51,480 bases of DNA from an uncultured Bacteroidales bacterium (GTDB lineage: Bacteria > Bacteroidota > Bacteroidia > Bacteroidales > CHK158-818), in assembly GCA_949300615.1 (NCBI GenBank), contig CASGEW010000008.1:1-51480 (forward strand), given 5' to 3'. The position numbers and the translations under genes were made by a program. Below the pieces are notes generated by a model. It ran no database searches and was not told the origin of the DNA. It worked only from the letters and a program-made list of their open reading frames with translations. Shown here in pieces: positions 59 to 20,032 of this stretch; position 1 is the stretch's first letter, and every line of letters begins with the position of its first letter.

Positions 59-79
59 TATATGAGTTGAAAATATGAA

Positions 80-572: not shown

Positions 573-576
573 CTCT

Positions 577-1047: not shown

Positions 1048-1102
1048 GATTACTTCTCCTCAATATGTTTTATGTAAATAATTTTTTATTCGATTTGATA
1101 AC

Positions 1103-1135
1103 AAAAAAAGAATCCCGGCTGGATAGCCGGAACTC
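1103..1135 (-). terminator. Terminator-like hairpin in the greA leader
   Basis: On the - strand, an 11-bp stem (1125-1135 with 1110-1120, core CCGGCT/AGCCGG, two G-T pairs in the outer part) closes the 4-nt loop ATCC and is followed at once by seven T (1109-1103). It has all the marks of an intrinsic terminator. It lies downstream of the greA promoter and upstream of the greA ATG. It may also end transcripts coming from the heptosyltransferase gene at 1236. Confidence 0.75.
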
Positions 1136-1155
1136 TCCTCTCTTCATCAACGCGA

Positions 1156-1187
1156 CAAAGGTAAGTATTTATTTTCAACTTGTCAAA
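1156..1187 (-). promoter_or_regulatory. greA promoter (Bacteroidetes type)
   Basis: On the - strand, TTTG (1184-1187) is followed by a 20-nt spacer and TACCTTTG (1163-1156). This matches the Bacteroidota consensus (TTTG at -33, TAnnTTTG at -7) with near-ideal spacing. Predicted transcription start is about 1149. Confidence 0.75.
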
Positions 1188-1235
1188 TAAAAACGAGAAT
1201 CTTTCAACTTTCTAAATATAAATAACTTATTTATA

Positions 1236-2297: not shown

Positions 2298-2301
2298 GGC
2301 T

Positions 2302-2910: not shown

Positions 2911-2940
2911 AATTGGATCAGTTAGTTTACAAGTATCTTA

Positions 2941-2971
2941 CAAACATAAGCATAGTTTTTAAATCGGCAAA
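2941..2971 (-). promoter_or_regulatory. Promoter for the DUF4254-GT9 unit
   Basis: On the - strand, TTTG (2968-2971) is followed by a 19-nt spacer and TATGTTTG (2948-2941), a full match to TAnnTTTG. Predicted start of transcription is about 2935, giving a 25-nt leader. Confidence 0.7.
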
Positions 2972-3048
2972 AAGTATGACCCACAAAAACGGACAACTTC
3001 CGTTTTTATCGTTTTCAAGAACTTTTGTGTTGAATTTGTACGGCAAGA

Positions 3049-3081
3049 TTGGGAACGATTCACCACAAATGGTTATCTTCG
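3049..3081 (+). promoter_or_regulatory. Probable promoter of the lipoprotein gene
   Basis: TTG at 3049-3051, a 22-nt spacer and TATCTTCG at 3074-3081 (one mismatch to TAnnTTTG). The predicted transcript starts near 3088, about 24 nt before the ATG at 3112. This argues against any start upstream of 3112. Confidence 0.5.
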
Positions 3082-3111
3082 ATTCGGAAATATATCAAAC
3101 CTATAAATCGA

Positions 3112-4365: not shown

Positions 4366-4398
4366 CTTCTTCCCTCACGCAAACAGGCGTTTTTTTAT

Positions 4399-5097
4399 TT
4401 ATTCTTTGCCCGAGAGCATTTCCGTCAAGGTTTTCACCCCTTCGGTAGCACCTTGCCGAATCACGGTTATCTCCCGGTCGGCAGGGACTCGCACCTCTTT
4501 GGGATCGATCAAATAGACCGGAACACGGTTCGGTACATAATTCAGTAATCCTGCGGCGGGATAAACGTTCAGGGAGGTCCCTACGATAACAAAAATATCG
4601 GCTTGGGAGACCTGCTCGATGGCAGGCTCGATCATGGGCACGGCCTCGTTGAACCAAACGATAAAGGGCCGCAACTGACTTCCGTCAGCGGCCAAATCGC
4701 CCAGATGAATATCACAATCGGGAGGGGTCAATTCGGTAATCAGGTTCGGATTCTTGGAAGAACGGGCCTTCATCAACTCACCGTGCAGGTGCAAGACATT
4801 TGTACTACCGGCACGTTCATGCAGGTTATCGACATTTTGGGTGATGATCCGTACATCGAAATCTCTCTCCAACCGGGCCAACCCGATATGTCCTCCGTTG
4901 GGAGAGGCCGACAACAGCTCTCTTCGACGGGCATTGTAAAAGTCCAATACCAATTGCGGATTACGGTACCATCCCTCGGGTGTAGCGACATCTTCTATCC
5001 GGTGTTGTTCCCACAACCCGCCGGAATCCCGAAAGGTGGAGATACCGCTTTCGGCACTCATACCGGCCCCCGATAATACAACCAATCTTTTTTTCAT
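4399..5097 (-). CDS. cobB: Sirtuin, NAD-dependent protein deacylase (CobB-like)
   Basis: This protein of about 232 residues removes acyl groups from lysine using NAD+. Motifs in order: GAGMSAESGISTFRD (NAD site), FYNARR (Tyr and Arg spaced as in CobB/SIRT5 enzymes that prefer succinyl-lysine), TQNVDNLHERAGS, LHLHGEL (catalytic His), PFIVWFNEAVP and VGTSLNVYPAA. The region between HGEL and LRPFIVWF has no C-x2-C pairs, so the usual structural zinc site of sirtuins appears to be missing. The start at 5097 gives the normal N-terminus MKKRLVVLSGAG; an ATG at 5103 adds two residues. The gene stands alone and converges on the lipoprotein gene. Confidence 0.93.
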   Translation of the reverse strand: MKKRLVVLSGAGMSAESGISTFRDSGGLWEQHRIEDVATPEGWYRNPQLVLDFYNARRRELLSASPNGGHIGLARLERDFDVRIITQNVDNLHERAGSTNVLHLHGELMKARSSKNPNLITELTPPDCDIHLGDLAADGSQLRPFIVWFNEAVPMIEPAIEQVSQADIFVIVGTSLNVYPAAGLLNYVPNRVPVYLIDPKEVRVPADREITVIRQGATEGVKTLTEMLSGKE

Positions 5098-5220
5098 AAT
5101 CATTTATAATAAAAGTTGCTTTTACGAACAAATGAACCGTTTATACCGTTTTTCAGGCAGTGTTCTTACAAAAATATTAAATTTTTTAATGAAAAACGAA
5201 GCGGAATGAGATAAATCGCT

Positions 5221-5228
5221 TATCTTCG
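5221..5228 (+). promoter_or_regulatory. Probable -7 box for the FKBP gene pair
   Basis: TATCTTCG, one mismatch to TAnnTTTG, lies 60 nt before the ATG at 5289. No convincing -33 TTTG is seen upstream. Confidence 0.4.
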
Positions 5229-5288
5229 CCGAGGATTTTGAATTTCAAGTGTGTAAGAACAAATAATTCATTTCTAAAAAGAACAATT

Positions 5289-5873
5289 ATGGACAAAATA
5301 AGTTATGCTCTGGGATTGAGCATGGGCAATAATTTCCTGCATACGGGCATCAAAACGCTGAATGTCGAAGATTTTGCCGCTGCCATAAAAGCTGTTTTTG
5401 AAGGGGAAAAACCGGCCATGAGCTACGAAGAGGCCAAACAGGTCATCAACGAATATTTTGCCTCTATACAAGCTCAAATGTTGCAAAAAAACAAGGAAGA
5501 AGGAGAAGCATTCCTGGCCGAAAACAAGAAGAACCCGAAAGTAGTAACACTCCCCAGCGGCTTGCAATATGAAATATTGACCCAAGGGAACGGGCCGAAA
5601 CCCAAAGCAACCGACCGCGTACGGTGCCACTACCACGGGACATTGATCAACGGACAGGTATTCGACAGCTCGGTAGAACGCGGACAACCCGCCGTATTCG
5701 GTGTCAGCCAGGTAATCCCCGGGTGGGTTGAAGCGTTGCAGCTGATGCCGGTAGGTTCGCGCTGGAAACTTTTCATCCCCTCTAATCTGGCATACGGAGA
5801 ACAGGGCGCGGGAGATTCGATTGCCCCCAACTCCGCCTTGATCTTTGAAGTAGAATTAATCGGAATCGTATAA
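5289..5873 (+). CDS. FKBP-type peptidyl-prolyl isomerase, cytoplasmic (FklB-like)
   Basis: The protein has 194 residues and catalyses cis-trans isomerisation of prolyl bonds. An N-terminal helical dimerisation domain (about 1-90, FKBP_N type) is followed by an FKBP catalytic domain (about 95-194) with VRCHYHGTLINGQVFDSS, VIPGWVEALQLMPVGS and NLAYGEQGAG. No signal peptide is present, so it is cytoplasmic, unlike its neighbour. The ATG at 5289 begins MDKISYALGLSMG, the standard start of this subfamily. A TTG at 5238 in the same frame is rejected because it would add an unrelated tail. It is followed 23 nt later by a paralogue. Confidence 0.93.
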   Translation: MDKISYALGLSMGNNFLHTGIKTLNVEDFAAAIKAVFEGEKPAMSYEEAKQVINEYFASIQAQMLQKNKEEGEAFLAENKKNPKVVTLPSGLQYEILTQGNGPKPKATDRVRCHYHGTLINGQVFDSSVERGQPAVFGVSQVIPGWVEALQLMPVGSRWKLFIPSNLAYGEQGAGDSIAPNSALIFEVELIGIV

Positions 5874-5896
5874 CAAACATATATTTGAAAACAAAA

Positions 5897-6610
5897 ATGA
5901 AAAAAACAGTTTTAGTTTCAGCAGCTTTATCTATTTTAGTCGCTGTTGGTTTAAGTTCTTGCAGCAGCACGCCTTCTGCATCTCTGAAATCGGATGTGGA
6001 CAGTGTCAGCTATGCCATCGGTGTAACAAACGGTGCCAGCATCAAACAGATGATTGATGGGGCCAAAAAAGAGTCTAACATTGAACTGAATGTCAATGAC
6101 CTGTTGGCTGGTTTCGTAGCTGCCGCCAAAGGAGATTCTACCAAAATCAGTATGCAAGATGCCTACACAGTCATCCAAACGTACCTGATGAAAGTAGATC
6201 AAAAAATGAAAGAAGAAAACTTGGCCGCCAGCCAAAAGTTCTTGGCTGAAAAAGAAAAAGAAGAAGGGGTAAAGAAAACAGAATCCGGCTTGCTCTATAA
6301 AGTGGTTACCGAAGGAAACGGTATAAAACCGAAACATGACAGCAACATCAAGGTTCATTACAAAGGTACCAAAATCGACGGAACCGAGTTCGACAGCTCT
6401 TACAGCCGCAACGAACCGGCAGAATTCCCGTTAGGCCAAACCATCCCGGGCTGGATAGAAGGTATCCAATTGATGAACGTAGGTTCTAAATATATCTTCT
6501 ACGTACCGGCAGAACTGGCTTATGGCGAAATAGGACACGGCATTATCAAACCCAACGAAGCGCTGGTATTTGAAGTAGAGTTGCTGGACATCCTGCCGGA
6601 TGACAAGTAA
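5897..6610 (+). CDS. FKBP-type peptidyl-prolyl isomerase, lipoprotein (FkpA/Mip-like)
   Basis: This 237-residue paralogue of the preceding gene has a lipoprotein signal (MKKTVLVSAALSILVAVGLSSC, lipobox LSSC), so it is exported and lipid-anchored and probably assists folding of envelope proteins. The N-terminal helical domain contains SVSYAIGVTNGASIKQM. The catalytic domain begins near residue 125, with IKVHYKGTKIDGTEFDSS, TIPGWIEGIQLMNVGS and AELAYGEIGHG. ATG at 5897; an in-frame TTG at 5885 is an unlikely alternative. It shares a transcript with the cytoplasmic FKBP (23-nt gap) and is followed by a clear terminator. Confidence 0.94.
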   Translation: MKKTVLVSAALSILVAVGLSSCSSTPSASLKSDVDSVSYAIGVTNGASIKQMIDGAKKESNIELNVNDLLAGFVAAAKGDSTKISMQDAYTVIQTYLMKVDQKMKEENLAASQKFLAEKEKEEGVKKTESGLLYKVVTEGNGIKPKHDSNIKVHYKGTKIDGTEFDSSYSRNEPAEFPLGQTIPGWIEGIQLMNVGSKYIFYVPAELAYGEIGHGIIKPNEALVFEVELLDILPDDK

Positions 6611-6637
6611 TAATCTTATCTTCCATAAATTGAAAAT

Positions 6638-6669
6638 AAAAACTCCCGCAAAACGGGAGTTTTTATTTT
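6638..6669 (+). terminator. Intrinsic terminator after the FKBP pair
   Basis: An 11-bp stem (AAAAACTCCCG 6638-6648 with CGGGAGTTTTT 6654-6664) encloses the loop CAAAA and continues as TTTTTATTTTTT. Confidence 0.9.
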
Positions 6670-6783
6670 TTATGACCGGATGGCATCAGCCAAATAAAAA
6701 CCTAAAAAATAACGAATCGCGATATTTTTTCAGGAAAACACATTTTTTCTCGCTCAAAAATTTTACTTTCCAAACTATATGAT

Positions 6784-6791
6784 TACATTTG
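6784..6791 (+). promoter_or_regulatory. -7 box for tRNA-Pro
   Basis: TACATTTG matches TAnnTTTG exactly and ends 11 nt before the first base of the tRNA, the right distance for transcription to start just ahead of it. The -33 position shows TTTT rather than TTTG. Confidence 0.6.
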
Positions 6792-6802
6792 CACCGCATT
6801 TA

Positions 6803-6878
6803 CGGGGTGTAGCGCAGTTGGCAGCGCGCCACGTTCGGGACGTGGAGGCCGGAAGTTCGAGTCTTCTCACCCCGACCA
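6803..6878 (+). tRNA. tRNA-Pro (anticodon CGG)
   Basis: The 76-nt sequence folds as a complete cloverleaf. The acceptor is CGGGGTG (6803-6809) with CACCCCG (6868-6874), followed by discriminator A and an encoded CCA (6876-6878). The D arm stem is GCGC/GCGC. The anticodon stem is CCACG/CGTGG with loop TTCGGGA, giving anticodon CGG for the proline codon CCG. The T arm contains GTTCGAGTC. It is a single tRNA with its own -7 box and terminator. Confidence 0.95.
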
Positions 6879-6880
6879 AA

Positions 6881-6908
6881 GCGAACAACTTTTGTTGTTC
6901 GCTTTTTT
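6881..6908 (+). terminator. Intrinsic terminator after tRNA-Pro
   Basis: A 9-bp perfect stem (GCGAACAAC 6881-6889 with GTTGTTCGC 6894-6902), loop TTTT, then TTTTTTA. It starts two bases after the encoded CCA. Confidence 0.9.
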
Positions 6909-7004
6909 ATTTCCGTTCCATTCCCTGCCTCCCCGCCGGACTTTATACTTCCTAAAAACGCTGTACTCCCAAAACTCTCCCGTCGGAATTTTGAACATTT
7001 TTTG

Positions 7005-7012
7005 TATCTTTG
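7005..7012 (+). promoter_or_regulatory. -7 box for mutS
   Basis: TATCTTTG matches TAnnTTTG exactly. Transcription would start near 7018, which excludes an in-frame start at 7002 and supports the GTG at 7038 or the ATG at 7050. No well-spaced -33 element is seen. Confidence 0.6.
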
Positions 7013-7037
7013 TGTGAATCAAAAAAAGCATACAACC

Positions 7038-9653
7038 GTGGCAAAGGAAATGGTAGAAACGCCGCTGATGAAGCAGTACCTCGAAATCAAGAAGAAGCAT
7101 CCCGATGCAATATTGCTCTTCCGGGTAGGCGACTTTTATGAAACGTTTTCGGACGATGCCATCACGGCCTCCGAAATATTGGGAATCACCCTTACGCGGC
7201 GAGCCAACGGAGCAGCTCAATACGTGGAGCTGGCCGGATTCCCCCACCACGCCCTGGACACCTACCTGCCCAAACTGGTACGCGCCGGCAAACGGGTGGC
7301 CATTTGCGACCAGCTGGAAGACCCCAAACTAACCAAAAAGCTGGTAAAACGGGGCATTACCGAGTTGGTTACCCCGGGCGTTTCCATCAACGACAACATC
7401 CTGAATCACAAGGAGAACAACTTCCTGGCCGGCATTCACTTCGACAAGGGTATTTGCGGGGTGGCGTTTCTGGACATCTCTACCGGAGAGTTCCTGACGG
7501 CACAGGGATCGTTCGACTACGTGGATAAACTGCTGAACAACTTCTCACCCAAAGAGGTTCTCTTTGAACGCAACAAACGGAAACTGTTTGAAGAGCATTT
7601 CGGTACACACTATTTCACCTTTGAACTGGACGACTGGATCTTTACCGAAGATGCCGCCAACGATCGGCTGCTGAAACATTTCGAGACCAAAAACCTGAAA
7701 GGGTTCGGCGTGCACAACCTCAAAAGCGGCATTGTCGCCGCAGGTGCGCTGTTGTATTACCTGGACATCACCCAACATACGCACATCGGCCACATATCGG
7801 CCCTCTCGCGAATAGAGGAGGAGCGTTACGTACGCATCGACAAATTCACGGCCCACAGCTTGGAGTTGTTGGAAACAATCAACGAAGGGGGGAAAAGCCT
7901 GCTCGACGTGATAGACCGTACCACCAGCCCGATGGGAGCCCGGCTGTTGCGCCGCTGGATCATCTTCCCCCTCAAAGAGGTAAAACCCATCAACGACCGG
8001 TTGGCTGCGGTAGAATACTTTTTCAAGGCCCCGGAGGTGAAGGAACAAATCGAACAGCAGATTGCACGGATCGGCGACGTAGAACGCATCATCTCGAAGG
8101 TGGCCGTAGGCAGAATCTCCCCCCGCGAAGTGGTACAGCTGAAAGTGGCCCTGACAGCCATGGAACCGATCAAGCAACTTTGCACTGAAAGTACCGAACC
8201 GGTACTGCAAACCATCGGCGACAGACTGGACCTGTGCACTGTCATCCGCGACCGGATAGAGCGGGAGATCAACAACGATGCTCCGGCCCTGCTCAACCGG
8301 GGAGGAGAAATCATCCGGCAGGGTGTCAACGAAGAACTGGACCAGCTGCGGGAGATGGCTTACTCCGGCAAGGATTACCTGCTGCACATCCAACAGCGAG
8401 AAAGCGAACGTACCGGTATCCCAAGCCTGAAAATCAGCTACAACAACGTTTTCGGATACTACATCGAGGTACGCAATACGCACAAGGACAAGGTTCCTCC
8501 TGAATGGATACGGAAACAGACCCTGGTAAGCGCCGAGCGCTACATCACACAAGAGCTGAAAGAGTACGAAGAAAAAATTTTAGGGGCGGAAGACAAGATA
8601 CAATCGCTCGAAACGCAACTGTTCAACGAGCTGGTTCTATCGCTGGCAGACTATATACAGGCCATCCAGAACGACGCCTCGTTGATCGCGCGGCTGGACT
8701 GCCTGCTCTCGTTCGCCACCGTGGCCAAAGAGAACCGCTACATCCGGCCCGAGGTAAACGACGGTACGGAAATCTGTATTACCGAAGGACGCCATCCGGT
8801 GATAGAGAAACAGTTACCTCCGGGCGAAGCCTATATCTCCAACAGCGTAACGCTGGACAACGAACGCCAACAGATTATGATGATAACCGGGCCGAACATG
8901 GCCGGGAAATCGGCCTTGCTACGGCAAACGGCCCTGATCGTGCTACTGGCACAAACGGGAAGTTTCGTCCCGGCAGAGGCTGCCCGCATCGGAATGGTGG
9001 ACAAGATTTTTACCCGCGTGGGGGCATCGGACAACATCTCGGTAGGAGAGTCCACCTTCATGGTAGAGATGAACGAGGCGGCCAACATCCTCAACAACAT
9101 ATCCGACCGCAGTCTGGTCCTGTTCGACGAACTGGGACGCGGTACCAGTACCTACGACGGTATATCCATTGCATGGGCCATCGTCGAGTACATACACGAA
9201 CACCCCAAGGCCCGGGCCAAAACGCTCTTTGCCACCCACTACCACGAGCTCAACGAGATGGAACGGAGCTTCAAACGCATCGCCAACTACAACGTCTCGG
9301 TAAAGGAGGTGGGCAACAAGGTGATTTTCCTGCGTAAACTGGTCCGCGGAGGCAGCGAGCACAGCTTCGGTATCCACGTGGCCAAAATGGCGGGGATGCC
9401 GCAAAGCATCGTCAAACGGGCAAACAACATCTTGAAACAGCTTGAATCGGACAACCGGAAAAGCGGTATCGCCAAACCTACCCAACAGATCGCCACGCAA
9501 CGCGAGGGAATGCAGTTGAGCTTTTTCCAGCTGGATGACCCCGTCCTGAGCCAGATACGCGACGAAATCAAGAACCTCGACATCAACTCCCTCACCCCGA
9601 TCGAGGCGTTGAACAAGCTGAACGAGATCCGTAAAATCATAACGGGGAAATAG
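7038..9653 (+). CDS. mutS: DNA mismatch repair protein MutS
   Basis: The protein has about 871 residues, full length for MutS, which recognises base mismatches and small loops and starts mismatch repair with MutL. The N-terminal domain carries the mismatch-contacting F-x-E (GDFYETF). The connector, lever and clamp domains fill the middle. The C-terminal ATPase has Walker [16 protein letters not shown], the [14 protein letters not shown] block, Walker [17 protein letters not shown] and the THYHEL switch. The start is the GTG at 7038 ([14 protein letters not shown]), which gives the family's usual spacing before the LMKQY block; ATG 7050 is the alternative. The gene is alone; no mutL is in the window. 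Confidence 0.97.
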
Positions 9654-9674
9654 CCGCCAGGCTACCTCCCCGTT
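9641..9674. terminator. Hairpin between mutS and rubrerythrin
   Basis: AACGGGG (9641-9647) pairs with CCCCGTT (9668-9674), and inside it TAGCC (9651-9655) pairs with GGCTA (9660-9664). It covers the mutS stop codon and lies between two convergent genes. There is no T-run, so the terminator call is tentative. Confidence 0.4.
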
Positions 9675-9698
9675 ACATATTTCAAAAGTCAACCGTTA

Positions 9699-10277
9699 TC
9701 AATAATTATTCCGCATCGGCTCAAAAAAGGCTTTGGGATGCAAACAGGCCGGGCAGGTTCCAGGCGCGGTAAGCCCCGTATGGATAAACCCGCAATTGCG
9801 GCACTGCCACTGGATGGGTTCCGTACGTTTAAAAACGGAACTCTCCTCTACGTGTTTAAGCAAAGTGCGGTAACGCGACTCGTGAAAGTCTTCTACCTTC
9901 ATAATCATTTTAAAGGCCGTTGCTACATCTTTGAACCCTTCGACTTCGGCTACCCGGGCAAATTCGGGGTAGAGCGACGACCACTCCATCTTTTCGCCTT
10001 CGGCAGCTTCCAACAGGTTTTCGGCCGTCGTCCCTATCGTTCCGGCGGGATAATCGGCCGTAATGCAGACCATCCCTCCTTCCAGGAATTTAAAAAACCG
10101 TTCGCCATGAGCCCGTTCCTGGTCGGCCGTTTCCAGAAAAACGGCGGCAATCTGCTCGTATCCCTCGTCCCGGGCCACGTGGGCAAACATCGTATAACGG
10201 TTTCGTGCCTGCGACTCGCCGGCAAACGCTTTCAACAGGTTTTGTTCGGTCAATGTTCCTTGGATACTCTTTTTCAT
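9699..10277 (-). CDS. rbr: Rubrerythrin
   Basis: This 192-residue protein is a non-heme diiron peroxidase that protects anaerobes against hydrogen peroxide. The ferritin-like four-helix domain (about 1-145) has the diiron ligands in AFAGESQARNRY, ETADQERAHGERFF and the later EVEGF and EDFHESRY blocks. The C-terminal rubredoxin-like domain (about 153-192) has the C-x2-C pairs CRNCG and CPACL that hold the Fe(SCys)4 site. ATG at 10277. A perfect 12-bp inverted repeat begins 7 nt upstream of the start and is a candidate regulatory site. Monocistronic, convergent with mutS. Confidence 0.96.
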   Translation of the reverse strand: MKKSIQGTLTEQNLLKAFAGESQARNRYTMFAHVARDEGYEQIAAVFLETADQERAHGERFFKFLEGGMVCITADYPAGTIGTTAENLLEAAEGEKMEWSSLYPEFARVAEVEGFKDVATAFKMIMKVEDFHESRYRTLLKHVEESSVFKRTEPIQWQCRNCGFIHTGLTAPGTCPACLHPKAFFEPMRNNY

Positions 10278-10284
10278 ATCGGTT

Positions 10285-10314
10285 GTTTTAATGGTAATAA
10301 CATACCATTAAAAC
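10285..10314 (-). promoter_or_regulatory. Perfect inverted repeat upstream of rubrerythrin
   Basis: GTTTTAATGGTA (10285-10296) and TACCATTAAAAC (10303-10314) are exact reverse complements around the 6-nt spacer ATAACA. The repeat lies between a -7-like TAACTTTT (10336-10329 on the - strand) and the rubrerythrin ATG. It could be an operator for an oxidative-stress repressor or an mRNA leader hairpin. The sequence is not one I can assign to a known regulator. Confidence 0.55.
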
Positions 10315-10411
10315 AGTTCCTCCCGGGAAAAAGTTAGCTTCGGGAAAGAGATTCTGTTCAAGGGAAACATTTTTTAGCCTGAATCCGATCCTGAGAGAGG
10401 TAAACAGAGAA

Positions 10412-10828
10412 TTATTCAGCTTCGATGGCTGGCGGGATACGAAGCAGTTCAAAAGAACCGCCCTGATCGAAGGCTCCCTCGATGGCTTTGAAATAGGCTT
10501 TGAGGTGCTCGGTCTGGGAATGTTTCTGATGTGCCTGTTTATGCTGCCATTTCTCTAACAAGAAAAACAGGGTGGTGTCGTTGTACGATTGGTATATTTC
10601 GTATTTTAAACATCCCGGCTCTTTGAGGGTCTCTACGGCACACCGATCGAAGGCCCGTTTGAAATCGGCCACACGGTCGGGTTTTATCTTATAGGTAATG
10701 TGCATGACCAGTGCCGTATCCACGGCCGTTTGTTTCTCTTGACCGGCTTTCTTTACCCCTTCCTGACAACCGGTTACAACTCCCCACGCAAAGAGGGCGG
10801 AGAGCACTCCATAAAAAATTTTTCTCAT
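10412..10828 (-). CDS. Lipoprotein with antibiotic biosynthesis monooxygenase (ABM) domain
   Basis: The 138-residue protein starts at ATG 10828 with a lipoprotein signal (MRKIFYGVLSALFAWGVVTGC; VTGC lipobox). The mature part is a single ABM/YgiN-like ferredoxin fold: MHITYKIKPDRVADFKRAF, then EPGCLKYEIYQSYNDTT, FFLLEKWQHKQAHQKHSQ and HLKAYFKAIEGAF. ABM proteins often act on quinones or small aromatics, but many have no known substrate, and an exported lipid-anchored form is less usual. Its start overlaps the nadB stop by 4 nt, so it is translationally coupled to nadB. An in-frame extension to 10951 lies inside nadB and is rejected. Confidence 0.85.
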   Translation of the reverse strand: MRKIFYGVLSALFAWGVVTGCQEGVKKAGQEKQTAVDTALVMHITYKIKPDRVADFKRAFDRCAVETLKEPGCLKYEIYQSYNDTTLFFLLEKWQHKQAHQKHSQTEHLKAYFKAIEGAFDQGGSFELLRIPPAIEAE

Positions 10829-12408
10829 CGGGTTTCTATTTCGTTTTTTTGCGGATAGTCGATCGTATAATGCAATCCCCGGCTCTCTTTGCGCTCCATC
10901 GCCTGACGGGTAATCAGGTAACCGACGTTGATCATGTTGCGCAATTCGCAAATCTCTTTCGAGGCCTTGCTGCGTTTAAAAAGGTTTTCAGTCTCTTCGT
11001 ACAAAATATCGAGACGCACCCAGGCCCGTTTCAACCGCAAATCGCTGCGGACAATCCCTACATAGGAGCCCATGATCTGGTTGACCTCTTTCATGCTCTG
11101 GGTAATGAGCACCATCTCTTCGTTGATTACCGTCCCCTGGTCGTTCCATTCGGGAATCTCGGTATTGAAATCGTACCGATCCAGGACGCTGACTGCGTGT
11201 TTGGCTGCGGCATCGGCATAGACGACAGCCTCTATCAGGGAGTTGGAGGCCAGGCGGTTCCCGCCGTGCAATCCCGTGCAGGCACATTCGCCTACGGCAT
11301 AGAGCCGGCCGATGCTCGACTGGGCATTCAAATCGACCTTGATGCCGCCGCACAGGTAATGGGCCGCGGGAGCTACCGGTATATAGTCTTTGGTAATATC
11401 GATGCCCAGGCTCAGGCACTTTTCGTAAATGTTCGGGAAGTGTCTCCGGGTCTCATCGGGGTCTTTGTGCGTTACATCCAGATAGACGTGGTCGTCGCCG
11501 CGCACCTTCATCTCGCTGTCGATGGCGCGTGCCACGATATCGCGCGGGGCCAACGACAGCCGGGGGTCGTACTTCTGCATGAACTCCTCCCCGCCCATGT
11601 TGCGCAAAACGGCTCCATAACCGCGCATCGCCTCGGTAATGAGGAAACAGGGTCGATCGCCCGGATGGTACAACGCCGTGGGATGAAACTGGATAAACTC
11701 CATATCCTTGACAACTCCCTTGGCCCGATACACCATGGCGATGCCGTCGCCGGTAGCTACCAACGGATTGGTTGTATTGCGGTAAACGGCACCTACGCCT
11801 CCGGTAGCCATCAACGTAACTTTGGAGAGGAAGGTATCCACCTCTCCCGTCTTTTCATTCATAATATAGGCCCCGTAGCATTTTATGCCGGGGGTATAGC
11901 GGGTTACGATAATGCCCAAATGATGCTGGGTGATGATTTCTACTGCAAAGTGATCGCTGAATATGGTTATGTTGGGATGTCTCTTGACGGCCCGTATCAG
12001 GCTCTCCTGAATTTCGGCACCGGTATTGTCCTTGTGGTGGAGGATACGGAACTCGGAGTGTCCGCCCTCCTTGTGCAGGTCAAACTCTCCCGCCTCGTTC
12101 CGGTCGAACTCCACCCCCCACTTTATCAGTTCCTGAATCTGTCCGGGGGCTTCGCGGACCACCTTCTCGACCGCCGCGCGGTCGCTTATCCAGTCGCCTG
12201 CAATCATGGTATCTTCAATATGTTTCTCAAAGTTATCAACCGACAAATTCGTTACCGAAGCCACCCCTCCCTGCGCAAAAAAAGTGTTGGCCTCTTCCAG
12301 ACCCGTCTTGCATATCATGGCTACTGTGCCTTTATCGGCCACTTTCAGGGCGAAGCTCATGCCGGCAATGCCCGAACCGATAACTAAAAAATCATATTTA
12401 CGTACCAT
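10825..12408 (-). CDS. nadB: L-aspartate oxidase
   Basis: NadB (527 residues) is a flavoprotein that oxidises L-aspartate to iminoaspartate, the first step of NAD synthesis; in anaerobes fumarate can serve as electron acceptor. The FAD site is at the N-terminus (FLVIGSGIAGMSFALKVADK). The substrate region includes FIQFHPTALYHPGD, a TEAMRGYGAVLRN block, and the family signature YLCGGIKVDLNAQSSIGRLYA with ACTGLHGGNRLASNSL. A helical domain of succinate dehydrogenase flavoprotein type closes the C-terminus. ATG at 12408; an in-frame TTG at 12420 is rejected. nadA and nadC are not in the window. Confidence 0.96.
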   Translation of the reverse strand: MVRKYDFLVIGSGIAGMSFALKVADKGTVAMICKTGLEEANTFFAQGGVASVTNLSVDNFEKHIEDTMIAGDWISDRAAVEKVVREAPGQIQELIKWGVEFDRNEAGEFDLHKEGGHSEFRILHHKDNTGAEIQESLIRAVKRHPNITIFSDHFAVEIITQHHLGIIVTRYTPGIKCYGAYIMNEKTGEVDTFLSKVTLMATGGVGAVYRNTTNPLVATGDGIAMVYRAKGVVKDMEFIQFHPTALYHPGDRPCFLITEAMRGYGAVLRNMGGEEFMQKYDPRLSLAPRDIVARAIDSEMKVRGDDHVYLDVTHKDPDETRRHFPNIYEKCLSLGIDITKDYIPVAPAAHYLCGGIKVDLNAQSSIGRLYAVGECACTGLHGGNRLASNSLIEAVVYADAAAKHAVSVLDRYDFNTEIPEWNDQGTVINEEMVLITQSMKEVNQIMGSYVGIVRSDLRLKRAWVRLDILYEETENLFKRSKASKEICELRNMINVGYLITRQAMERKESRGLHYTIDYPQKNEIETR

Positions 12409-12447
12409 ATTTTCCGTCAATCTATAAAAATGAATATTTTATACCAA

Positions 12448-12455
12448 CAAAGGTA
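12448..12455 (-). promoter_or_regulatory. -7 box for nadB
   Basis: TACCTTTG on the - strand is an exact TAnnTTTG match, 40 nt before the nadB ATG. It lies in the 92-nt divergent gap with the PH-domain gene, whose own -7 candidate is TATCTTGC at 12476-12483 (weak). Confidence 0.55.
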
Positions 12456-12500
12456 CATATAAACTATCAATTTTGTATCTTGCACCAAAATCAATTTTAC

Positions 12501-12911
12501 ATGCAGCGGACATTTAAATCGAAAATCGGCTGGTGGTACTACCTCATCCTGACATACTGCTCCGGATGCCTCCTGTTAGCCATCTGGTACAAAGAGGGAA
12601 TGGGGATGGCAGCCCTGTTTTTGGCCGATCTGGCCCTGATCCAGTTCATGCTGAAAACCGAATATGTCATCACCGACGGTACGTTGTTGCTGAAATGCTG
12701 GATCATGCCCGTGTGCCGTATCCCGGTGGCCGAGATAACGAAAGTAGAAGATTCCCATAATCCACTGTCTTCTTATGCCCTGTCGTTGGATCGGCTCAAA
12801 ATAACATACGGAAAAAGATACTCGTTGGTCTCTCCCGACAACAAAAAAGATTTTATAGCAGAACTCCAAAAATACAATTCCGATATCATATACGTTTCCC
12901 GAAAAAAATAA
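12501..12911 (+). CDS. Small membrane protein with bacterial PH-like domain
   Basis: The protein has 136 residues. Two membrane segments lie near the N-terminus (about 13-31, YYLILTYCSGCLLLAIWY, and about 36-54). The remaining 80 residues look like a bacterial pleckstrin-homology domain (EYVITDGTLLLKCWIMPVC, IPVAEITKVEDSHNPLSSY, YSLVSPDNKKDFIAELQKY). Its function is unknown. ATG at 12501; an in-frame TTG at 12480 is rejected. The next gene, lpdA, begins 4 nt after the stop, so they are co-transcribed. Confidence 0.85.
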   Translation: MQRTFKSKIGWWYYLILTYCSGCLLLAIWYKEGMGMAALFLADLALIQFMLKTEYVITDGTLLLKCWIMPVCRIPVAEITKVEDSHNPLSSYALSLDRLKITYGKRYSLVSPDNKKDFIAELQKYNSDIIYVSRKK

Positions 12912-12915
12912 CCCT

Positions 12916-14367
12916 ATGAAAACACTCGACACGACACGATTCGGTGGAGAAATTGCCGGACACAAGGCAACAGAACGCACTGCCACGGTAGAAATAACAG
13001 CCGATATGTTCAAAAAAAATAAAAATTTCGACGTAGCCATTTTAGGCGGAGGCCCCGCCGGATATACCGCTGCCGAGCGGGCGGCACAAGGAGGGCTGTC
13101 GGTGGTTCTGTTTGAAAAAAACGCGTTGGGCGGGGTTTGCCTGAACGAAGGGTGCATCCCCACCAAAACACTCCTCTATTCGGCCAAGCTCTACCAACAG
13201 GCCTTGAACGGAGCCAAATACGGCATCAACAACGGCAACACGACGTTCGATTACGCCAAAATAGCTGCCCGCAAAACCAAGGTGGTGCGCAAACTGGTAG
13301 CCGGCATCAAGGCACGGATGAGCGAACAGGGGGTTACGGTAATCAACCAGGAGGCAAAACTGAACAAGACAGATGCGGCCTATTTTGAATTAAACGCCGG
13401 AGAAGAGAGTTTCCACGCCCGCAACCTGATCATCTGTACCGGATCGGAAACGACCATTCCGCCCATCCCGGGAATCGAACAGCTGTCGTACTGGACCAGC
13501 CGCGAAGCGCTGGCCGCCAAAGAGATTCCCGAATCGATACTCATCATCGGAGGCGGTGTCATCGGTATGGAGTTTGCCGCGCTGTACAACAGCTTCGGGA
13601 GCGAAGTTACGGTGGTAGAGGCCCTTCCCGAAATTTTGGGTAATACCGACAACGAAGCCGCCGCTTTCCTGCGCGAGGAGTATGCCAAACGGGGTGTCAA
13701 ATTCCATCTAAACAGCCTCGTTACGGCCTTTACCGACCAAGGAGTAGAGATAAAAACCGGCGAGGAAACGCAAACGCTGACCTCCGAGAAAATCTTGCTG
13801 AGCATCGGAAGAAGGCCCCGCTGGGAAGGGATGGGGCTGGAACAACTGGGCCTGGAAAGCTCCGGAAGAGGAATCCGTGTCAACGAATATATGCAAACTT
13901 CCTTCCCCCACGTATATGCCTGCGGCGATGTAACGGGATACTCCCTGCTGGCCCACACGGCGGTACGGGAAGCCGAGACGGCCGTACACCACCTGCTGGG
14001 CGAGAACGACGCCATGTCGTACGAAGCCGTCCCCTCGATTGTATATACCCAACCGGAAATCGCCTCGGTAGGTGCCACCGAAGCCGCCCTGACCGCAGAG
14101 GGGAGGGAATATAAGGTACTCAAACGCTCGATGAACTATTCGGGCCGTTTCGTAGCCGAGAACGAAGGAGGCAACGGATTCTGCAAGCTGCTGGCAAGCC
14201 CCGACGGACTGCTGTTGGGAGCCCACATCGTAGGGTCGCCGGCATCGGAATTCATCGTAGCTGCCGGCATGGCCATAGACCGGAAGATTCCCATACGGGA
14301 ATGGAGAAAAACCATTTTCCCCCATCCGACGGTAGCCGAAATTCTGAAAGAGTGCATATCCATCTAA
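12916..14367 (+). CDS. lpdA: Dihydrolipoyl dehydrogenase (E3)
   Basis: This 483-residue FAD-dependent pyridine nucleotide-disulfide oxidoreductase reoxidises dihydrolipoamide in 2-oxoacid dehydrogenase or glycine cleavage complexes. The FAD site is VAILGGGPAGYTAAERAAQ. The redox disulfide is GGVCLNEGCIPTKT. The NAD site is SILIIGGGVIGMEFAALYN, and the C-terminal dimerisation domain contains the catalytic HPTVAE. The first 35 or so residues precede the Rossmann fold and are unusual; an ATG at 13006 (MFKKNKNFDVAILGG) would give the standard length. The partner E1 and E2 genes are not nearby. Confidence 0.93.
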   Translation: MKTLDTTRFGGEIAGHKATERTATVEITADMFKKNKNFDVAILGGGPAGYTAAERAAQGGLSVVLFEKNALGGVCLNEGCIPTKTLLYSAKLYQQALNGAKYGINNGNTTFDYAKIAARKTKVVRKLVAGIKARMSEQGVTVINQEAKLNKTDAAYFELNAGEESFHARNLIICTGSETTIPPIPGIEQLSYWTSREALAAKEIPESILIIGGGVIGMEFAALYNSFGSEVTVVEALPEILGNTDNEAAAFLREEYAKRGVKFHLNSLVTAFTDQGVEIKTGEETQTLTSEKILLSIGRRPRWEGMGLEQLGLESSGRGIRVNEYMQTSFPHVYACGDVTGYSLLAHTAVREAETAVHHLLGENDAMSYEAVPSIVYTQPEIASVGATEAALTAEGREYKVLKRSMNYSGRFVAENEGGNGFCKLLASPDGLLLGAHIVGSPASEFIVAAGMAIDRKIPIREWRKTIFPHPTVAEILKECISI

Positions 14368-14383
14368 AAACGAAAAACGCCGT

Positions 14384-15037
14384 ATGCGTATCCTGAACAT
14401 GATCGCCCTGCTGGCCATGGTTATCGGGTTTTCCTGGTGGGTGCTATACGAAGAGCTCCAAAAGAATACCGTATGCGTAGATTTTCAAAACGGGATGTTG
14501 GAATGGAGCGCGGAAGGGGACGACGTGGAGGGCATCGCCACCTCCTATAAGGAGGATACGTTGCATATCCGCTCCGCCCAACCGGCCCTGTTATGGTACG
14601 ACCGGGTAATGCCGCAAAGATCCGTTATCCGGTTTACGGCAAAAGAGAGCGATAACAACACCGGAGGAATATAGGGGTGTATCTGGGCGGTCGGCGACAA
14701 CCTGCAACCGCCGTTCTCCCGAAACCGGCATTTTCCTTTCCTATACAGCCAGAGTTACATCCTCTCCTTCTCGCCGAAGAGCCAAAAGGCCTATCTTTTC
14801 AGCCCTGCGGCCAACCGGACAGACTCCTGCGCCCTGCAACCGGATTCGGCCAACCGCTACGCCGTGGAGCTCCGGCACGAAGAGAACCGGTTAACGGTAT
14901 CGGTAAACGGACAACACATCTTTACAGACGACGGTATCGACACGCCACCTGCGGGGAGATTCGGGGTATTTCTGCAAAACGGACACCTGCAACTCTCCGG
15001 GCTTACCTTTTTGCGGTTGCCGCGCAAGCCTCAATAA
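14384..15037 (+). pseudogene. Membrane-anchored jelly-roll protein interrupted by an in-frame TAG
   Basis: From ATG 14384 one frame runs to TAA 15035-15037 (217 codons) with a single interruption, TAG at 14672-14674 (codon 97). The first part has an N-terminal membrane anchor (MIALLAMVIGFSWWVLY) and beta-rich sequence with VCVDFQNGMLEWSAEG and SVIRFTAKESD. The part after the stop continues as GCIWAVGDN, then ANRYAVELRHEENRLTVSV and AGRFGVFLQNGHLQLSGL, in the style of concanavalin-A-like or DUF6250/YesU-type proteins. Codon use on both sides is like the neighbours, and no in-frame ATG follows the stop. It is a recent nonsense allele, a sequencing error or a readthrough case. It starts 16 nt after lpdA and its end overlaps the convergent methyltransferase gene by 7 nt. 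Confidence 0.75.
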
Positions 15038-15561
15038 TAAAGCTGTTTGAAAAAGTCCCAGATGACAAGCCCCGCCGTTACCGAAACATTCAACGAATGT
15101 TTGGTGCCGAACTGGGGTATCTCGACACTCTGGTGGCACAAATCCACCACCGACTGCTGTACTCCCTTTACTTCGTTTCCCAGCACGACGGCATATTTTT
15201 GATGTTTGTCCAATCGCAACTCCGGAAGAGAGAGGCTGTCCTCCACCTGTTCGATGGCATACACCGTATAACCCGCCTCTTTCAACTCGGTTACCGCCTG
15301 GCACGTATCCTCCCGGTATTGCCACGCCACCGTATCTTCGGCACCCAAGGCGGTTTTGTGAATCTCCGGATGCGGCGGGACGGCTGTAATACCACACAAA
15401 AAAACGGATTCGACCAAAAAGGCGTCGGAGGTCCGGAACACCGACCCTACATTGTGTAAACTCCTGACATGATCGAGCACTACCACCAACGGAATCTTCT
15501 TGGCCTGCTTGAACTCCTGCTGCGTTATCCTCCCCAATTCGAGAATCGTCCTTTTTTTCAT
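15031..15561 (-). CDS. TrmH/SpoU family RNA methyltransferase
   Basis: The 176-residue protein is a minimal SPOUT-class 2'-O-methyltransferase that uses S-adenosylmethionine. Motif 1 is [20 protein letters not shown]. Motif 2 is [11 protein letters not shown]. Motif 3 is [20 protein letters not shown], which forms the trefoil knot and cofactor site. It lacks the N-terminal substrate-binding domain of RlmB and is closest to the short tRNA (Gm18-type) methyltransferases; the exact target base is not decided by sequence. ATG at 15561, 22 nt after the -7 box; an in-frame TTG at 15585 lies within that box. Confidence 0.93.
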
Positions 15562-15582
15562 CTTTTTTGCATTTTCACAAGT

Positions 15583-15590
15583 CAAAGATA
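15583..15590 (-). promoter_or_regulatory. -7 box for the RNA methyltransferase
   Basis: TATCTTTG on the - strand is an exact TAnnTTTG match, 22 nt before the ATG at 15561. It fixes that ATG as the start. Divergent from the gpmI promoter. Confidence 0.6.
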
Positions 15591-15625
15591 TACAAAATTA
15601 TAATATACCGAAAACAGAAAATTTA

Positions 15626-15633
15626 TACCTTTG
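15626..15633 (+). promoter_or_regulatory. -7 box for gpmI
   Basis: TACCTTTG is an exact TAnnTTTG match, 37 nt before the gpmI ATG. The -33 position is A/T-rich without a clear TTTG. Confidence 0.6.
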
Positions 15634-15670
15634 CCTCCGGAAAAATATAGAGAACAAACAAACTACGAAT

Positions 15671-17194
15671 ATGAAAAAGAAAGCATTCTTATTGATCCTC
15701 GACGGATGGGGAATCGGCAACCATTCCAAAGCCGACGTTATCAGCAATACCCCTACCCCGTATTGGGATTATCTGTTGGCCAACTATCCCCATTCTCAAT
15801 TACAGGCATCCGGCGAAAACGTCGGATTACCTGACGGACAAATGGGAAACTCGGAAGTGGGACACCTGAACATCGGTGCCGGACGCGTCGTTTATCAGGA
15901 CCTGGTAAAAATCAACCGGGCCTGCAAAGACAACTCCATCCTGCAAAACCCCGAAATAAAAGCGGCTTTTGAATACGCCAAGAAAAACAACGTACAGGTT
16001 CACTTCATGGGTCTGGTTTCGGACGGAGGCGTACACAGCTCTCTCAATCACCTGGAAAAACTGTGCGACATAGCCAAAGAGTACAACATCGAAAAGACAT
16101 TCGTCCACTGCTTTATGGACGGCCGCGATACCGACCCGCGCAGCGGCTTGGGCTTCATCAAACAACTGGAAGAGCACATGGCCAAATCAACCGGAAAAAT
16201 CGCATCCATCATCGGACGTTACTATGCCATGGACCGCGACAAACGGTGGGAACGCATAAAAGAGGCTTACGACCTGATCGTGAACGGGAAAGGTGCTCCC
16301 TTTACCGATATGCAGACGGCAATGAAGGCCTCTTACGATGCCGACGTTACGGACGAATTCATCAAACCGATCGTGCACGTGGATGAAAACGGCCAACCGG
16401 TAGGCGTTATCAAGCCTAACGACCTGGTTATCTTCTTCAACTACCGCAACGACCGCGCCAAAGAGCTGACCATCGTACTGACCCAACAGGATATGCCCGA
16501 AGCCGGGATGCATACCCTGCCGCTCTACTACTGCTGCATGACGCCGTACGATGCCAAATTCATCGGGGTACACATCCTTTTCGACAAAGAAAATGTGGCC
16601 AATACCCTCGGCGAGGTGGTAAGCAAAGCCGGATTGCGGCAACTGCGTATTGCCGAAACGGAAAAATATGCGCACGTTACCTTCTTCTTCTCGGGCGGAC
16701 GTGAAAAAGAGTTCGACCTGGAAGAACGTATCCTGATCCCGTCGCCCAAAGTAGCCACCTACGACCTGAAACCGGAAATGAGTATCTACGAAGTCAAAGA
16801 CGCTTTGGTTGAGGCGCTCAACAGCAACCGTTTCGACTTGGTTGTCTGCAACTTCGCCAACGGCGACATGGTAGGGCATACCGGTGTGCTGGAAGCCATC
16901 CAGAAAGCGGTAGTGGCCGTAGATGCCTGCGTAAAAGACGTTATAGAAGCTGCCAAGGCAAACGGATACGAATCGATTGTCATTGCCGACCACGGTAATG
17001 CCGATAATGCAATCAACGCCGACGGTACGCCCAATACGGCACACTCGCTCAACCCCGTTCCCTTTATCTACATCTCCGACAACAAGTCGGCCCAGGTAGA
17101 AAACGGTATCTTGGCGGATGTGGCTCCCTCGATCTGCCAGATCCTGGGCATCACGCCTCCTGCGGAAATGACCGGACACGGATTAATCAAATAA
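15671..17194 (+). CDS. gpmI: 2,3-bisphosphoglycerate-independent phosphoglycerate mutase
   Basis: GpmI (507 residues) interconverts 3- and 2-phosphoglycerate in glycolysis without a cofactor, using two Mn2+ ions. It belongs to the alkaline phosphatase superfamily: [10 protein letters not shown] holds the first metal ligand, [15 protein letters not shown] the phosphorylated Ser, [14 protein letters not shown] and [11 protein letters not shown] the substrate site, and NGDMVGHTG with [10 protein letters not shown] the remaining metal ligands. The ATG at 15671 follows the -7 box. Longer in-frame starts upstream overlap the divergent methyltransferase and are rejected. A strong terminator follows. 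Confidence 0.97.
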
Positions 17195-17217
17195 CCCGTT
17201 TCTCATAACCTGACAAG

Positions 17218-17251
17218 GAGTGGATTCCGTAAAGCGGAATCCACTCTTTTT
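17218..17251 (+). terminator. Intrinsic terminator after gpmI
   Basis: A 12-bp perfect stem (GAGTGGATTCCG 17218-17229 with CGGAATCCACTC 17235-17246), loop TAAAG, then TTTTTAT. Confidence 0.92.
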
Positions 17252-17271
17252 ATCCCGAACCATTCAGAGCC

Positions 17272-17847
17272 ATGCTACAAATAGAGAATACGGTCATCAG
17301 TTTCGACGTCCTAGAAAAATATTTTATCTGCGATTTGGAGAAATGTTTGGGGGCCTGCTGCATCGAAGGCGATGCCGGAGCTCCGATCGAAGCAGAAGAA
17401 AAAAACATCCTGGAAGAGTTGTTGCCGATTGTGTGGGACGACCTCACCCCGGCCGCCCAGGAAAAGATCAAAGAGCAGGGAGTCAGCTACATCGACGAGG
17501 AGGGCGACCTGGTAACCTCCATCGTCAACGGAAAAGATTGCGTCTTTACCTGTTACGACAAAGGCGGGATGTGCCAATGCGCCATCGAAAAAGCCTTCCG
17601 ACAAGGGAAAACCTCCTTTTACAAACCCATCTCCTGCCACCTCTACCCCATACGGATAAAACAGTTCGGAGAATATACGGCCGTCAACCTGCATAAATGG
17701 AAGATATGCAAAGCGGCTGCCGTTCTCGGCCGGAAGGAGGGGGTCAAGGCCTACCAATTCCTGAAAGAGCCGCTCATCCGAAGATTCGGAAAAGCGTGGT
17801 ACGAACAGTTGGAGATTGCCGCCCAAGAGCTACCGCAGCTGAAATAA
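17272..17847 (+). CDS. DUF3109 family Cys-rich protein
   Basis: The 191-residue protein matches DUF3109, common in Bacteroidota and of unknown function. It is rich in cysteine: CDLEKCLGACC near residues 20-30, CVFTCYDKGGMCQCAI near 85-101, ISCHLYP near 122-129 and WKICKAA near 144-150. This arrangement resembles the YkgJ-type metal-binding clusters and suggests an iron-sulfur or zinc site. There is no signal peptide. It begins 21 nt after the gpmI terminator and ends at a second terminator. I see no clear promoter of its own, so transcription by readthrough from gpmI is possible. Confidence 0.88.
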   Translation: MLQIENTVISFDVLEKYFICDLEKCLGACCIEGDAGAPIEAEEKNILEELLPIVWDDLTPAAQEKIKEQGVSYIDEEGDLVTSIVNGKDCVFTCYDKGGMCQCAIEKAFRQGKTSFYKPISCHLYPIRIKQFGEYTAVNLHKWKICKAAAVLGRKEGVKAYQFLKEPLIRRFGKAWYEQLEIAAQELPQLK

Positions 17848-17854
17848 CGAAACA

Positions 17855-17890
17855 AAAAGTCCCGGGAGGCTTAGCTTCCGGGACTTTTTT
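17855..17890. terminator. Bidirectional terminator
   Basis: AAAAAGTCCCGGGAG pairs with CTTCCGGGACTTTTTT (about 17855-17868 with 17875-17889) around a short loop. A-tract and T-tract on the two sides allow it to serve both convergent transcripts, the DUF3109 gene and glsB. Confidence 0.85.
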
Positions 17891-17901
17891 ATGATTCTAT
17901 T

Positions 17902-18849
17902 TTATGCTAACTTGATGGTCGCAAACTTATCGTACGTCTCGATATGGCGCGAACGCTTCTCTTCGAGAATCTCCTTGACGGCAACCAGAATACCCGACTC
18001 TTCGACATCGCCGAACTCGTCGTTTATAGCAGTTCCGAACATCCGCATGGTGGGAGACAGGCTCATATAGGCATTCACCAACGGCGGGATGTTAAACCCT
18101 AATTTCCGAATCTCGCTGTTCAGCACTTTGTAGTCGTCCTTAAAGCTGTCATAACGGAACAACTTTTCCATCTTGGCTACATCGGTATGGGTTTGCAACG
18201 GATGAATAGGAAAAACCAACCTATCGGGATCGGGAAAATGCTTGTTGAGGAAATATAAAATCATGTTTCTCCCTTCCGAAGGATAACTGGGATACATGGT
18301 TACCTTCCCGAAGAAATACTGTACCTGCGGATAATCGACCGTAAGCGCACCCAATCCGTCCCACAGGTTATCGAGGGCAAAAAGACTTTTCGATCCGGCC
18401 TTGGACGACTGGTACTCCAACGTAACGAACGAACGCCCCAGCTCCAACGTATTGGGCATATAATCTTTCAGGAAACGTTCTGAAAAATGGAACATATGCG
18501 AGGTCGCCAACATCGGTTGGCCATTCTCGAAATAGGATACATCGCTGCCTACCAGGAAACGATACCCCCCCAGAATTTTCTCCTCTTCGGGACTCCAGAC
18601 GATAAGTTGTTTGTATGGGTTCGGCATGACATCGTACTCGTCGATATCCACCGGAAGGCCTGTTCCTCCGCCGGCCTGACGGAACGCTATTTCCCTGAGG
18701 CGACCCACTTCCTTCATGGTATTGGGCGCTTCGTTATGGGAAAATATATATATTTCGTTGTTCCCTTTGCGCGTGGTACGCATAAATTTATCGGGTGTCA
18801 GCTCTGACTTGATAATCTCTTTGTCAACGGGTGCAATTATATTTTCCAT
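17902..18849 (-). CDS. glsB: GNAT-type N-acyltransferase (glycine lipid synthesis, GlsB-like)
   Basis: The 315-residue protein resembles the OlsB/GlsB acyltransferases that attach a 3-hydroxy fatty acid to the amino group of an amino acid. In Bacteroides the GlsB/GlsA pair makes glycine lipids of the envelope. Visible are VGRLREIAFRQAGGGTG and DEYDVMPNPYKQLIVW with ILGGYRFLVG (the acyl-thioester binding fold), and LELGRSFVTLEYQ. It lies 13 nt after the second acyltransferase gene on the same strand, as in the known pair. The amino acid used cannot be told from sequence; glycine is inferred from known Bacteroides enzymes. Confidence 0.82.
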   Translation of the reverse strand: MENIIAPVDKEIIKSELTPDKFMRTTRKGNNEIYIFSHNEAPNTMKEVGRLREIAFRQAGGGTGLPVDIDEYDVMPNPYKQLIVWSPEEEKILGGYRFLVGSDVSYFENGQPMLATSHMFHFSERFLKDYMPNTLELGRSFVTLEYQSSKAGSKSLFALDNLWDGLGALTVDYPQVQYFFGKVTMYPSYPSEGRNMILYFLNKHFPDPDRLVFPIHPLQTHTDVAKMEKLFRYDSFKDDYKVLNSEIRKLGFNIPPLVNAYMSLSPTMRMFGTAINDEFGDVEESGILVAVKEILEEKRSRHIETYDKFATIKLA

Positions 18850-18862
18850 AATTTGATGAATG

Positions 18863-19687
18863 TCATTTTTTCAACTTATATACAACCTCTTTTACATAAG
18901 CTGCCCATGCCGACTGGCTCTTGCTGTTGTCGAATGTCTGCCAGGGAATAGGTTTGCCAATATGTATGGTAAATGTTTTGTTTCTACTCTTGAACATTTC
19001 GCTGGGCAAATAAATCATCTCTATGTTCACCTTAATGCCCATCTTCTTGCGCAACCATGCCAGCCGGTAAAAGAACTTGCTATTCAGCCCTTCAAAATAT
19101 ACCGGGATAACATCCCGCTGATATTGAACCGTTTTGGCGATGAAAGATTTTTTCCAATCCAGGTCTGCAATCCCCCCTTTTTGTATACGAGAAACCAATC
19201 CGGCAGGGAATACGAATATTTGCTGATCCGACTCGTATGCCCGAGCCAACTCCTCTGCTGCACCTTTTGCCTGTGCCCCGTGTTTGTTGATGGGTAAAAA
19301 TACCGGGGCAAGCGGCTTGACATTCATCAACAAATCGTTTACAACGAATTTGATGCTTGACGGGTACTTTTCGCCAAAGATAGAGACGAAACTCACACCG
19401 TCCAGCCCACCCAGAGGATGATTCGAGGCAAAGGTAAAACGACCTTTTTCAGGAATGTTTTCAAGACCTTCCACACGAGTGGTTACATTTAACTCTGATA
19501 ACAACGCTTTGGCAAAATCGACTCCTTCACATCCGGCATACTTGCGCAGAATGGCATTCATCTGTTCTTGACAAATCGTCTTTTCCAAAAAGCGAAACAA
19601 AAAAGCCGGTAATTTTTTCCCCAATTCCGGGGCTTTCTTCTTAACGACCTTTTCAATGTCTATTTGCATTGGAAAGTTTGCTTCCAT
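18863..19687 (-). CDS. glsA: PlsC-like O-acyltransferase (glycine lipid synthesis, GlsA-like)
   Basis: This 274-residue protein of the lysophospholipid acyltransferase family carries the catalytic HX4D box in NHPLGGLDGVSFVS and the later VFPAGLVSR block. Paired with a GNAT N-acyltransferase it matches GlsA, which adds the second, ester-linked fatty acid to N-acyl glycine. It probably acts at the inner face of the cytoplasmic membrane. ATG at 19687 (MEANFPMQID) lies 32 nt after a -7 box; a TTG at 19705 in frame and a later ATG at 19669 are less likely. It is the first gene of the pair and drives glsB. Confidence 0.83.
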   Translation of the reverse strand: MEANFPMQIDIEKVVKKKAPELGKKLPAFLFRFLEKTICQEQMNAILRKYAGCEGVDFAKALLSELNVTTRVEGLENIPEKGRFTFASNHPLGGLDGVSFVSIFGEKYPSSIKFVVNDLLMNVKPLAPVFLPINKHGAQAKGAAEELARAYESDQQIFVFPAGLVSRIQKGGIADLDWKKSFIAKTVQYQRDVIPVYFEGLNSKFFYRLAWLRKKMGIKVNIEMIYLPSEMFKSRNKTFTIHIGKPIPWQTFDNSKSQSAWAAYVKEVVYKLKK

Positions 19688-19718
19688 TAAATTTTCTATT
19701 CTCAAAAAATATCCTCGC

Positions 19719-19726
19719 CAAAAGTA
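19719..19726 (-). promoter_or_regulatory. -7 box for glsA-glsB
   Basis: TACTTTTG on the - strand is an exact TAnnTTTG match, 32 nt before the glsA ATG. Confidence 0.5.
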
Positions 19727-19762
19727 CGCAAAAACTCTATATTTTTATCTAAATGAATCTCT

Positions 19763-19770
19763 TATTTTTG
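19763..19770 (+). promoter_or_regulatory. Possible -7 box pointing to the dcw cluster
   Basis: TATTTTTG matches TAnnTTTG and is 27 nt before the ATG of a 45-codon open frame and 312 nt before rsmH. The surroundings are very A/T-rich, so a chance match is possible. Confidence 0.35.
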
Positions 19771-19796
19771 TTTTCCTGCCATTTTTACCTGAACTT

Positions 19797-19934
19797 ATGC
19801 CCAAATATGACTTTTCAAACTACTTTTTAGACGATAATCTGAGGCAAAAGATTACTGAGCAAGAAAAAAAATTTCTATTTTTTATCCGATGCTTTTTATC
19901 TCCCTTTCAAAAGAACGGGTGTTTTCTTAAATAA
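19797..19934 (+). CDS. Possible small protein, 45 residues, unrecognised
   Basis: Open frame MPKYDFSNYFLDDNLRQKIT... ending NGCFLK, rich in Phe and Lys, preceded at a suitable distance by a TATTTTTG box. It lies in the 394-nt gap (19688-20081) between glsA and rsmH, where mraZ would be expected in many bacteria, but it does not resemble MraZ. The region is much more A/T-rich than the neighbouring genes, so this may be leader sequence with a chance frame. Apart from this frame and the promoter candidates, I see nothing in the gap. Confidence 0.25.
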   Translation: MPKYDFSNYFLDDNLRQKITEQEKKFLFFIRCFLSPFQKNGCFLK

Positions 19935-20032
19935 AATATTACAATTTGACAATTTAAACCGTTGGATATGTGTTGAAAACTTTTGATCCAAAAAAAATAG
20001 ATCGATATAAAAATTGTATGCAAAAATATTAA

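Follow-up and report, generated by a model that had tools for sequence, protein, structure and literature searches.

An in-frame amber stop as a probable recent nonsense allele of a DUF6250-like gene in an uncultured Bacteroidales bacterium

Overall, in the window of 51,480 nucleotides that we analyzed, a DUF6250-like gene is interrupted by an in-frame amber codon, and this is very probably a recent, ordinary single-base nonsense allele of an apparently dispensable gene. The observations behind this reading are the stop itself, the intact frame in a sister species, a homologous domain that extends across the stop, and the absence of the gene from the same site in the third of the genus genomes. 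The relevant features of the window are as follows.

12480 to 12911, plus strand: gene for a bPH_4 protein, the upstream neighbor that precedes lpdA.
12916 to 14367, plus strand: lpdA-like gene for a pyridine nucleotide-disulfide oxidoreductase, with 16 bases between it and the interrupted gene.
14384 to 15037, plus strand: interrupted DUF6250-like gene of 217 codons, open but for codon 97, with an intact orthologue at L001:2765-3418 and a full-length DUF6250 alignment.
14384 to 14671, plus strand: part encoding the remaining 96-residue product, a hydrophobic N-terminal helix plus the beginning of the beta domain.
14672 to 14674, plus strand: in-frame TAG at codon 97, TGG in the sister, from translation and orthologue comparison.
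14675 to 15034, plus strand: second half of the domain, untranslated; the only possible restarts are GTG at 14864 and TTG at 15011 and 15017.
15031 to 15585, minus strand: convergent SpoU-family RNA methylase gene, overlapping the 3′ end of the interrupted gene.

Translation of the frame at 14384 to 15037 yielded 96 residues, TAG, another 120 residues and a final TAA, which confirmed the description in an earlier note of a 217-codon frame whose sole interruption lies at codon 97. No in-frame ATG occurs in 14675 to 15034. The same note had warned that an automatic annotation would report only a 96-residue fragment, and the mechanical ORF list indeed contains, from this frame, just the 96-aa piece at 14384 to 14674.

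The genus belongs to the Bacteroidales (Bacteroidaceae incertae sedis), and among its three genomes the gene is present in that of the window (G000) and in that of the sister, Candidatus Gallibacteroides avistercoris (G001), and absent from G002; the family search covered the same three genomes as the genus search. The sister locus L001 and the G001 match are one orthologue, not two, as G001 contig C34 and the contig that carries L001 are both 8480 bases long. It encodes the full 217-residue protein with tryptophan (TGG) at codon 97 and differs from the interrupted gene at 4 of 654 bases: codons 63 and 115 differ silently, codon 87 by a missense change (K/E) and codon 97 by the nonsense change (TAG/TGG), so that past the stop a single base differs, silently. 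The single-base change in an otherwise intact gene that had been proposed is upheld, since this sole orthologue runs on through codon 97 and the part downstream of the stop shows both conservation and homology to DUF6250. Neither orthologues ending at codon 97 nor a loss of downstream conservation, which would have spoken against the proposal, was seen in this one comparison. Judging from the one orthologue and from full-length homologues, tryptophan was probably the earlier state. The gene resembles a young nonsense-mutation pseudogene with one lesion: one base creates one in-frame stop, the orthologue has the frame intact, part of a conserved domain is removed, no further decay is visible and a third relative lacks the gene. 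It differs from such pseudogenes in nothing notable.

We consider the frame to be real coding sequence, with one beta-rich domain cut in two, because the alignment with DUF6250 proteins covers sequence before as well as after the stop. This alignment, which spans codon 97, also bears out the earlier reading of the protein text before and after the stop as one domain. When compared with a three-member DUF6250 alignment (hhalign), the intact protein matched over residues 1-212 (probability 90.7, E 1.3e-6), and a single BLASTP comparison with the protein of locus L005 (genome G167) gave 24% identity over residues 34-208 (E 9e-9). The L005 protein is a clear member of DUF6250 (PF19763), with 201.8 bits against a cut-off of 26.9, and also has a sub-cut-off Laminin_G_3 match. 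The focal protein shares with such proteins of Bacteroidales a near full-length alignment and an N-terminal membrane or export segment, but it is shorter and stays below the Pfam gathering score (15.6 bits against the cut-off of 26.9, E 0.015, residues 155-205). A lipoprotein cysteine was recognized by eye in L005, whereas none was seen in the focal protein. DUF6250 is scarce in the order, with matches in 7 of 80 genomes, 5 of them above the cut-off. NCBIfam gave no match up to E 1, the PDB sequence search returned two matches that we took as chance (E 0.91 and 1.6), and a literature search on DUF6250 found nothing.

A structure model built from the one sequence contains a single N-terminal helix (residues 2-27) followed by strands only. 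The pLDDT is 85-94 for residues 1-20 and averages 48 over the model. The helix fits the suggestion that the product is membrane-anchored. The jelly-roll fold suggested alongside is plausible, though only weakly supported: the part after the helix is modeled as strands only, but at low confidence.

In a search of the order, 6 of 393 genomes matched at E 0.01 or less, namely G000, G001 and four weak ones. Among the weak matches, L005 is the DUF6250 protein described above, L006 lies in a 993-aa frame that extends past the locus, and L007 lies in a frame with a TAA; L004 and L008 were rejected as glycosyl hydrolase family 16 proteins. In G002, a 246-base spacer separates the lpdA gene (protein 78% identical) from the SpoU gene, compared with 663 bases here, and the longest ORF listed in that spacer has 54 aa. 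Therefore, with a mere spacer at its place in the third genome, the gene looks dispensable. We also considered a gene remnant in the G002 spacer, whose first codons by eye resemble those at the start of the gene, and do not claim one, as the local alignment was no better than shuffles (score reached by 218 of 500 shuffles for the gene against the spacer, and by 54 of 1000 for the first 70 bases). Regarding a mobile origin, the DNA had no match in 72,556 plasmid records and the protein none in 50,697 phage records.

At the L005 locus (L005:962-2118), a bPH_4 gene immediately precedes the DUF6250 gene, and the two overlap by 4 bases. The window likewise has a bPH_4 gene upstream; unlike in L005, lpdA stands between it and the DUF6250-like gene, giving the order bPH_4, lpdA, DUF6250-like. 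A partnership of bPH_4 and DUF6250 genes is possible. Further upstream, an open frame of 558 codons (10711-12387) runs antisense to the minus-strand gene of a FAD_binding_2 oxidoreductase (10825-12420). It has no Pfam match, is interrupted by TGA in the sister and is probably not a gene.

The window matches L001 at 99.14% over 12001-17000. In comparisons per 500 bases, its identity to G001 was 98.6-100% over 11001-16000 and 86.6-97.6% in the rest of 1-20000, except for one bin at 99.0%. The high-identity tract looks like recent recombination between the sister species, and the pattern of identity suggests that the stop arose within this young, presumably exchanged tract. The stop is probably young because the tract around it is nearly identical to the sister. 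One stop among four differences is not remarkable, because, of the 1953 single changes that the intact frame allows, 76 create a stop, and the chance is about 0.15 if changes are random. We propose that a recent substitution would have turned the tryptophan codon into an amber stop, so that translation would end at codon 97 and leave an anchored product of 96 residues that holds half of the beta domain and presumably has no function. The absence of decay past the stop, where one base differs silently, fits a young stop; it would also fit an error or readthrough.

Four origins for the stop had been listed in the earlier note. The fresh nonsense mutation is the favored one, phase variation shows no visible device, readthrough lacks support, and a sequencing error remains a rival. 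Under this last reading, a base-call, assembly or strain-mixture error would hide cells that carry tryptophan at codon 97, or both alleles; we regard it as rather unlikely, though it deserves some weight. G000 is a draft of 130 contigs that is 94.57% complete, its prfA gene holds an implausible out-of-frame deletion, and the frame past the stop is undamaged. The prfA deletion is a point against the nonsense allele, since the assembly may hold local errors. However, the sisters truly differ in this tract at about 1 base in 200. Usual consensus error rates are far below 1 in 200 bases. Additionally, none of the 57 matched ORFs in each direction was flagged for a frameshift, and no other interruption was upheld in the G000 sample, which speaks for decent assembly quality. 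The base is probably real in the sequenced cells. Programmed on/off switching of a surface protein at codon 97 is scarcely credible: the product looks surface-exposed or membrane-bound, which is in favor of this reading, but the lesion is a substitution and neither a change in repeat length nor an inversion. The gene contains no tandem repeat, and within 13900-15700 we found only short, imperfect repeat pairs.

A further alternative is functional readthrough or recoding, in which the UAG at codon 97 would be read via a suppressor tRNA or through missing release factor 1 to give a full-length protein. We consider this very unlikely. The frame past the stop is kept, and prfA is frameshifted in G000 and was not found in G001, yet TAG is a normal terminator in all three genomes. 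Among ORFs of 150 aa or more, it ends 46 of the 324 sampled in G000 (14.2%; the sample, of which the window is a part, comprises 451,480 bases), 26 of 160 in G001 (65 of 388 with a larger sample) and 19 of 124 in G002. Plain tryptophan at codon 97 in the sister also argues against readthrough. Rfam detected 48 tRNAs in G000, 47 of which were typed by ARAGORN; the suppressor tRNA suggested in the earlier note was searched for among these, and no CUA anticodon was present in this incomplete set, which is without tRNA-Trp, Ile-GAU and Ala-UGC. The missing tRNA-Trp leaves room for a Trp-derived suppressor. The 48th tRNA, cut by a contig end, is Thr GGU by eye. We also observed that one tRNA (L044:55-128 on G000 contig C114; Asn att according to ARAGORN) has AUU as its anticodon, which is unusual and differs from that of the Asn-GUU genes of this genome.

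If UAG were recoded, other genes split by TAG could be expected, and none was upheld in a partial sample. A first count of inner stops relied on gene calls by longest ORF. The focal gene was missing from it, presumably displaced by a longer overlapping frame, and the stops that it did list were rejected because they were close to the beginning of the query ORF or fell in antisense-looking frames. A second count took every ORF of at least 100 aa, in about a fifth of the genome, and treated a stop as inner when it lay 10% to 95% of the way along the ORF. In the direction from G001 to G000, 141 ORFs had a match of at least 70%. Of these, 48 did not look coding by third-position bias and were removed, which left 73 coding-like ORFs and 20 with few differences, a total of 93 that includes overlapping frames. 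From G000 to G001, 148 matched, 49 were dropped, and 79 coding-like and 20 few-difference ORFs were kept. Inner stops occurred in 3 ORFs in the first direction (the focal TAG and two TGA) and in 6 in the other (five TGA and one TAG). The 8 ORFs other than the focal one each overlap a longer ORF on the opposite strand and were discounted as antisense, a judgment based on ORF length rather than on homology in each case. One of these frames is also third-position biased, so the coding-like numbers contain more ORFs than genes. No second gene with an inner stop was upheld among the 93 G001 ORFs besides the focal TAG. Overall, the case resembles known UAG recoding or release-factor-1 loss in that the frame stays open beyond an in-frame TAG and the assembly has a damaged prfA. 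It is unlike such systems in that TAG is still a normal terminator, no CUA tRNA was found in the incomplete tRNA set, and one gene is affected.

The state of prfA bears on both the error and the recoding readings. In G000, the match is split between two frames on contig C25, at 397-744 and 678-1448 (L045:397-1448), and 43 nt that are present in the G002 prfA are missing, an out-of-frame deletion. No direct repeat was detected around it at the settings used. No second prfA was found in G000, where a full-length release-factor match on contig C23 is probably prfB, given its lower score. Among 10 other genomes searched, prfA was above the cut-off in 9 and not found in G001. Its absence there says little, because G001 is 88% complete and its contig C152 begins within the stretch concerned. 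On that contig (L083:1-1420), two ORFs directly precede pyrF at the place where G000 and G002 have prfA; we take them by eye to be phage-like, one resembling a phage adenine methylase. The 43-nt gap is most likely an assembly or strain artefact, because 14% of the sampled ORFs end in TAG. It is highly improbable that the lineage truly lost release factor 1, so that UAG would be leaky, an in-gene TAG newly tolerated and a change of code just starting. If true, such a loss would be remarkable in a genome where about one in seven sampled ORFs still has TAG as its terminator.

As a nonsense allele, the interrupted DUF6250-like gene would be a case of gene decay by one substitution, which is of little importance alone. 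Its main use is as a warning that an automatic annotation of this locus likely shows a 96-residue fragment.
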